NCBI RefSeq assembly: GCF_000001735.4
Contig: NC_003070.9
Coordinates: forward strand, 28,133,971-28,197,970
Origin: Arabidopsis thaliana
Taxonomy: Eukaryota; Streptophyta; Magnoliopsida; Brassicales; Brassicaceae
Reading direction: 5' to 3'
Length of the DNA: 64,000 nt
The notes below the pieces were generated by a model. The model was not told the origin of the DNA and did not search any database. It saw nothing but the letters and a program-made list of their open reading frames with translations. The translations under genes and the position numbers were made by a program. Positions 41,286 through 41,986 of the stretch are shown here, one piece after another. Within the stretch, counting starts at the first letter, position 1. Each line of letters opens with the position of its first letter.

Positions 41286-41789
41286 AACCGGAGCTCCGGT
41301 TTAGATTTGGGTTGGGTTTCTCTCTCTCACGTTTCTTTTGCTTGTTATGTACGGAAAGAGAAATAAAGAAAGATATGATAAGGAAAAGCGACTATGATCC
41401 ATTTTTAAAGATTTTTTCCAGTGTTCTGTTGTTACACACACACACACCCATCTCATTTGCAAATTTGCAATGTTGCTTTGATTAGCACAATAGTATATTG
41501 AGACTAACATATCAATATCTGGATTACTAAAGACAGATGAATGCTTCATTAGGGGGTTAATAATTGTGTGTTTCAGGTCATTGGTTCTCTTCTTCTTGAT
41601 ATACTTACTAACATGAGAGAGCAATAAAAACTTTTAGTTCACCCAAAAGAGACAGAGCTAAATACATTTTCAGCCACGGAATGGTTAAAATATGTGACCC
41701 GCGCACAGATTCGATAAAGTCTACAAGACAGCTTGTTAATTTCTTAAGGAGATCGTACTAATGCAGTTAATATATCACTAGTGTTTATT

Positions 41790-41897
41790 GCTTATTTTGG
41801 TTTCCACTTGTAAGCTTTCTTTATTCCTGTGGCAGCCTAAACGAATCCTACAATAGCCTGAAGCTCATCCATTTTCTGTAAACCAGAGAATGTCTCA
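41790..41897 (-). pseudogene. Duplicated 3' end of AFR1, broken
   Basis: The minus strand is homologous to the last exon of AFR1 (47511 to about 47609) and the start of the adjoining intron. The 17-mer CCTGAAGCTCATCCATT is exact in both (41857-41873 and 47591-47607). The Gln codon CAG of AFR1 is TAG here (complement at 41837-41839), so the copy is dead. Similarity continues left through the AFR1/thaumatin intergenic region (TGTGACCCGCGCA at 41693 and 47451) and stops at 41897. Confidence 0.85.
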
Positions 41898-41986
41898 TAA
41901 TTCACACCACTGGGCATTGTCTTGCAAATATGGATAGACCAGTAACCCTCATTTTGCTAATTAGCAATGCATGGATGTATGAAATG
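41898..41986 (+). pseudogene. Fragment of LPAT4 intron 1
   Basis: Similar to 38480-38573 in LPAT4 intron 1: both contain TTGTCTTGCAAATAT or CTGTCTTGCAAATAT, then CCAGT(C/A)ACCCTCATTT, and end in GAAATG. It begins exactly where AFR1 similarity ends. No LPAT4 exon follows, so the rest of that copy was lost. Confidence 0.75.

Follow-up and report, generated by a model that had tools for sequence, protein, structure and literature searches.

The locus studied here raises the question of how three adjacent thaumatin genes of Arabidopsis thaliana arose and what left a short stretch of DNA resembling two of their neighbors between the first two of them. We compared positions 36001 to 50000 by self-BLAST with the whole 64,000-nucleotide stretch analyzed (the window, C1:28133971-28197970) and searched the plant's own genome (119.7 Mb, 7 contigs). 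The genome-wide searches scored the best candidates only, so the counts of places given below are lower bounds, and several of the alignment tests were devised after inspection of the sequence. TLP-3 (40448 to 41285), PR5 (43784 to 44761), and a third thaumatin gene (46146 to 47092) are two-exon genes on the forward strand, and a full-length thaumatin domain was found above the Pfam cutoff in all three (280 to 281 bits; profile positions 1 to 209 of 209). To their left lies LPAT4 (coding region 37809 to 39387, forward strand), with an acyltransferase domain in exon 1 according to a profile search; its exons at 37809 to 38377 and from 38629 onward splice to an open frame, which sets intron 1 at 38378 to 38628. 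To their right is the 3' region of AFR1, on the reverse strand (47288 to 47631, by alignment). A SAP30-binding model had no match in the plant's own genome or in 14 controls and thus did not confirm the AFR1 domain. The names LPAT4, TLP-3, PR5, AFR1, and AFR2 are those of the initial annotation or of general usage. About 10 TCA units form a microsatellite (46077 to 46107) directly before the start codon of the third thaumatin gene, a tRNA-Asp (GTC) gene lies to the right of AFR1 at 50562 to 50633, and 44 bp of LPAT4 exon 1 (37833 to 37876) have a 93% match on the minus strand at C2:2188596-2188639, with no longer match there.

Two matches meet between TLP-3 and PR5. Positions 41529 to 41897 resemble the AFR1 3' end (47288 to 47631, plus strand, 382 columns, 71.5%, E = 7.1e-52), and positions 41897 to 41986 resemble part of LPAT4 intron 1 (38479 to 38573, plus strand, 97 columns, 76.3%, E = 5.4e-9); the overlap is a single base, 41897. 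Junction 1 accordingly lies at 41897 to 41898, its exact base being uncertain within about 10 bp. On its left is AFR1', a decayed reverse-strand copy in which the 3' flank of AFR1, its last exon, and the start of its last intron are represented (41529 to 41897; 331 aligned bases), and on its right is LPAT4', a forward-strand remnant of intron 1 (41898 to 41986; 88 aligned bases). The initial annotation had described this switch from AFR1-like DNA to LPAT4 intron 1, and the description held, the local alignment of 41898 to 41986 with the intron being significant. The AFR1-like DNA had been said to start at 41600, which was conservative, since the similarity extends left to 41529 and beyond. Colinearity with the third gene's 3' side continues through the TLP-3 3' flank (41286 to 41528, forward strand, against 47093 to 47287; identity at 133 of 175 aligned sites) and reaches the TLP-3 stop codon (41285). 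TLP-3 itself also matches the third gene, and the colinear stretch thus comprises gene and 3' flank and runs on into AFR1. Genome searches placed 41895 to 41990 in at least two places at an E value of ≤10 (itself and LPAT4 intron 1), the whole of LPAT4 intron 1 in at least two (itself and the scar), and 41529 to 41897 in at least three (itself, AFR1 over the whole length, and 123 bases of the AFR2 last exon). Right-flank DNA thus abuts left-flank DNA, in the parental orientation on both sides, between two copies of the segment. A head-to-tail duplication of an LPAT4-thaumatin-AFR1 segment would leave this order and orientation and is supported by them.

We consider it probable (roughly 0.6) that the scar preserves the junction left by an old head-to-tail segmental duplication, accompanied by a second tandem duplication and a later deletion. 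A segment reaching from LPAT4 intron 1 to the last intron of AFR1, and carrying one or more thaumatin genes, would have been copied beside itself, and nonhomologous joining would have brought LPAT4 intron 1 to lie immediately after the AFR1 3' end. A later deletion would have removed most of the LPAT4 copy, sparing about 90 bp of the intron, and the AFR1 copy would have decayed. The second tandem duplication, with cuts in the LPAT4 3' untranslated region (UTR) and a thaumatin 3' flank, would have parted PR5 from the third gene and produced a second junction (junction 2), and gene conversion would since have mixed the gene bodies. The event itself is of an ordinary kind and its scar unusually well preserved; a present function is not expected of the scar.

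The initial annotation had invoked unequal crossover between the AFR1 3' region and LPAT4 intron 1. Homologous exchange of this kind is unsupported, because no homology was detectable between the parental breakpoints (289 of 500 shuffles scored as high over 201 bp, and 91 of 500 over the inner 61 bp), though homology may have eroded since. With the breakpoints at the shuffle level, end joining or replication template switching appears likelier than homologous unequal crossover; at the present divergence, any short run of bases shared at the joins cannot be read with confidence. The two halves of junction 1 are similarly diverged. The K2P distance was 0.200 (0.15 to 0.25) for the AFR1 half, with 0.258 in its noncoding part, and 0.179 (0.10 to 0.30) for the LPAT4 half; mismatches numbered 58 of 331 and 14 of 88, respectively (P = 0.87), a comparison of low power with 88 bases on one side.

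It had also been proposed that a second LPAT4 copy was lost. LPAT4 exons 2 and 3 are indeed missing after the intron piece, as is most of the spacer between LPAT4 and TLP-3: a search for 38574 to 40231 in 41987 to 43563 gave nothing at an E value of ≤1e-3, and a tblastx search for the LPAT4 coding sequence in 41987 to 43783 gave nothing better than an E value of 0.33. At each of four settings, all 20 of the simulated copies (16 to 35% substitution) were detected, and a repeat simulation left none of 20 undetected per setting, with a median recovered fraction of 0.50 at the harshest. Decay alone is thereby ruled out as a means of hiding a second LPAT4 copy, and the missing part was either deleted or never there; the proposed loss therefore stands beside the possibility that this part was never copied.

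The DNA that follows LPAT4' (41987 to 42192, forward strand) may be copied from the right-hand end of the LPAT4-TLP-3 spacer (40020 to 40231), for which there is moderate evidence. The two stretches are identical at 120 of 192 sites, and their global alignment score was reached by none of 1,000 shuffles and none of 954 real segments (4 and 2, respectively, with softer gaps). The signal resides in the 3' half (0 of 1,000 shuffles), the 5' half being nonsignificant (103 of 1,000), and in four negative controls 296 to 798 of 1,000 shuffles scored as high. A free local search was weak and nonsignificant (97 of 500 shuffles) yet suggested the place; depending on the scoring scheme, further searches gave 40 to 237 of 500 for the full flank and 8 to 102 of 500 for the right end. 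Against the left edge of the third gene, the stretch gave no match (under the standard scheme, 183 of 500 shuffles scored as high), and its divergence equals that of the neighboring TLP-3 and PR5 promoters (72/192 versus 45/128; P = 0.72). The resemblance falls where a segmental duplication predicts it and counts in favor of that reading. If it is true, the LPAT4 remnant is followed by its own spacer, which would favor block duplication with an internal deletion over the insertion of filler.

The absence of LPAT4 exons 2 and 3 and of most of the spacer means that block duplication needs an extra deletion. No deletion of LPAT4 exons would be required if PR5 and the third gene had been duplicated first and a copy of about 1.7 kb, comprising the third gene and the AFR1 3' end, had later been pasted between LPAT4 and PR5, with a 90-bp filler templated by LPAT4 intron 1 during repair of the break; a second LPAT4 copy would then never have existed. 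Filler DNA at plant break repair sites is a short copy of nearby DNA between the joined ends. The piece in the scar, in contrast, is the very one that tandem duplication predicts, in the predicted orientation, and an inserted filler would agree with that prediction in source neighbor and orientation merely by chance; nor does such an insertion predict the spacer-end resemblance of 41987 to 42192. We regard it as unlikely, although it is the best of the alternatives. Less likely still is the duplication of a larger LPAT4-thaumatin-AFR1 block, after which a deletion joined the last intron of the AFR1 copy to intron 1 of the LPAT4 copy; it yields the same junction, and deletions are required in any case, but it needs a further large deletion, and the surroundings of the scar showed no further AFR1' or LPAT4' exons. 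Chance similarity or a dispersed repeat can be dismissed, as nothing was found in its support, the E values are 5e-9 and 7e-52, only the parents (for the LPAT4 piece, its one parent) were matched among the genome matches listed, and the two matches abut with orientation kept.

The segmental duplication is also supported by a second LPAT4-derived edge, between PR5 and the third gene. The PR5 3' flank matches that of TLP-3 as far as 44920, and from 44926 a chain resembling the LPAT4 3' UTR and, after it, the LPAT4-TLP-3 spacer keeps their order (39412 to 39652 and then 40059 to 40136). The right-hand limit of PR5 is thus probably a junction between thaumatin 3' flank and LPAT4 3' UTR (junction 2, 44920 to 44926), which the initial annotation did not contain, and 44926 to 45093 (forward strand) would be a remnant of the LPAT4 3' UTR and the LPAT4-TLP-3 spacer (from 39412 to about 40160, interrupted by large gaps). 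The chain score was 305, compared with maxima of 232 among 1,000 dinucleotide shuffles and 229 among 616 real segments, and the scores of seven control segments taken from this array were 142 to 184. Across four scoring schemes, the score was reached by 0 to 2 of 500 shuffles, 0 to 2 of 614 real queries, and 0 or 1 of 114 real targets, and the two parts of the chain tested separately were equaled by 0 and by 0 to 5 of 500 shuffles. Ordinary local alignment of 44921 to 45020 with the LPAT4 3' side was no more than suggestive, its score being reached by 6 of 500 shuffles and 8 of 986 real segments; a longer LPAT4 3' target gave 22 of 500 and 31 of 986, and 45020 to 45120 gave 34 of 500 and 63 of 978. 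It was the score tolerant of long gaps that made the match firm, in a test designed after these weak local matches had been seen. The whole-genome DNA searches, in which the best candidates were scored, did not report the match, and 44921 to 45075 gave no signal against four other array stretches, including 41987 to 42187 and LPAT4 intron 1. A near-perfect inverted self-match of 28 bp (a palindrome) occupies 39404 to 39431 in the LPAT4 3' UTR, where the stretch copied at junction 2 has its left edge.

Farther right, spacer-like DNA upstream of the third gene (to 45093) meets a block shared with PR5 (from 45076), which resembles an uninterrupted site and so suits an inserted copy of the third gene and AFR1 3' end. 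The shared distal upstream blocks of PR5 (within 42188 to 42860, forward strand) pair 42188 to 42366 with 45076 to 45262 and 42769 to 42860 with 45304 to 45397; they were not found upstream of TLP-3. Of 42188 to 42860, 40% was recovered upstream of the third gene, and of 80 simulated copies over four settings 1 was missed, at the harshest setting. The weaker upstream matches were not picked up by the whole-genome DNA searches, again with the best candidates scored. These blocks differ at 69 of 261 sites, compared with 72 of 419 for the junction 1 halves (P = 0.005; P = 0.09 for noncoding sites only), and the higher divergence leans toward an older PR5/third gene duplication. The TLP-3 and third gene upstream regions are likewise more diverged than the AFR1 half (42/130 versus 58/331; P = 0.001), so that a single simultaneous duplication would fit only with conversion or misalignment. 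A 40-bp unit is repeated 2.3 times (78% matches) upstream of PR5, at 43376 to 43467.

The phylogenetic signals within the array conflict. Of 239 third codon positions, shared states joined TLP-3 to the third gene at 45, TLP-3 to PR5 at 30, and PR5 to the third gene at 17, whereas the corresponding noncoding columns (134 of 388) numbered 36, 43, and 55, a further 31 being different in all three; the coding and noncoding distributions differed (chi-square P = 3e-4). Upstream columns alone were even (26, 30, and 28), and the intron and 3' flank carry the lean toward PR5 and the third gene. An inserted copy of the third gene fits the coding lean but runs counter to the noncoding one. Coding trees were rooted on the AFR2-block paralogue, and no tree was rejected by approximately unbiased (AU) tests on any of four data sets (the complete coding sequence, the same minus codons 99 to 126, these codons alone, and third positions), for which IQ-TREE warned of too few replicates. 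AU values for TLP-3 with the third gene, TLP-3 with PR5, and PR5 with the third gene were 0.81, 0.24, and 0.24 for the full coding sequence and 0.905, 0.157, and 0.092 without codons 99 to 126. The best tree joined TLP-3 and PR5 both on codons 99 to 126 alone and on third positions alone, and for the latter the bp-RELL column marked PR5 with the third gene as excluded. Codons 99 to 124 of the third gene share PR5 states (window scan P = 0.001 to 0.009 over four window sizes), and a longest-run gene conversion test was significant for no pair (P = 0.23 to 0.86). The third gene looks like a mosaic, mostly TLP-3-like with a PR5-like patch around these codons, in the region 46440 to 46530, that shares PR5's indel. 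Conversion between the gene bodies, which probably mixed them, is the simplest reading of the conflict. The proposal that PR5 arose last, within the right-hand block, is not established: junction 2 would fit a duplication of PR5 and the third gene there, but the coding sequence leans toward TLP-3 with the third gene.

The same chromosome carries a paralogous block (C1:6676000-6685900) with a single thaumatin gene and, after it, a convergent AFR2; among the blastn matches listed for the block, none was LPAT4-like. The YN00 dS values to its thaumatin paralogue were 1.16 for TLP-3, 2.40 for PR5, and 1.10 for the third gene, compared with 0.39 (TLP-3/third gene), 0.52 (TLP-3/PR5), and 0.68 (PR5/third gene) within the array. 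By this comparison, the three-gene array probably formed after the two blocks split. The single thaumatin gene beside AFR2 is the simpler, ancestral arrangement and was counted in favor of segmental duplication.

Known tandem segmental duplications with a retained breakpoint show the same head-to-tail join of right-flank and left-flank fragments between intact outer copies. Nothing essential differs here, with flank copies of about 370 and 90 bp and seemingly two junctions, and nothing in the locus departs from known duplication biology. Tentatively, and at slightly less than even odds, we suggest that both junctions were kept, with LPAT4 cut twice at different places, and that conversion acted largely in the gene bodies, so that the coding tree differs from that of the flanks. 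PR5 is a standard marker gene for salicylate-dependent defense; if this suggestion is true, its regulatory DNA and its protein have separate histories, and its upstream region starts in former LPAT4 DNA. The history of the cluster would be readable from two scars, independently of a coding tree that conversion probably blurs. The scars are single-copy landmarks that can be looked for at once in the genomes of other crucifers, and they suggest assigning orthology among TLP-3, PR5, and the third gene from the flanks together with protein trees. A tandem thaumatin-like gene cluster in poplar has been attributed to transposable-element activity (PMC3048497); both arrays consist of tandem copies of a stress-responsive thaumatin-like gene, but no repeat was among the genome matches listed for the scar in the PR5 array. 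TLP-3, PR5, and the third gene are listed among six Arabidopsis homologues of a plum PR-5 (PMC3063165). Particular terms searched in open-literature titles and the starts of abstracts yielded no description of these scars among the matches listed.

The reading frame of AFR1' shows its decay. On the minus strand, AFR1 translates as MDELQVIVGFVQAATGMKKACQV... and AFR1' as MDELQAIVGFV*AATGIKKAYKWKPK* (asterisks, stop codons). The CAG-to-TAG change reported earlier is present in the translated alignment, where AFR1 has VGFVQAATG and the copy has VGFV*AATG at the same place, and a further in-frame TAA follows downstream of the TAG. Between AFR1' and AFR1 there is also a frame difference of one base, and AFR2, compared by eye in the printed sequences, has the frame of AFR1'. 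Because AFR1' and AFR2 agree, the one-base frame change may lie in AFR1 itself.
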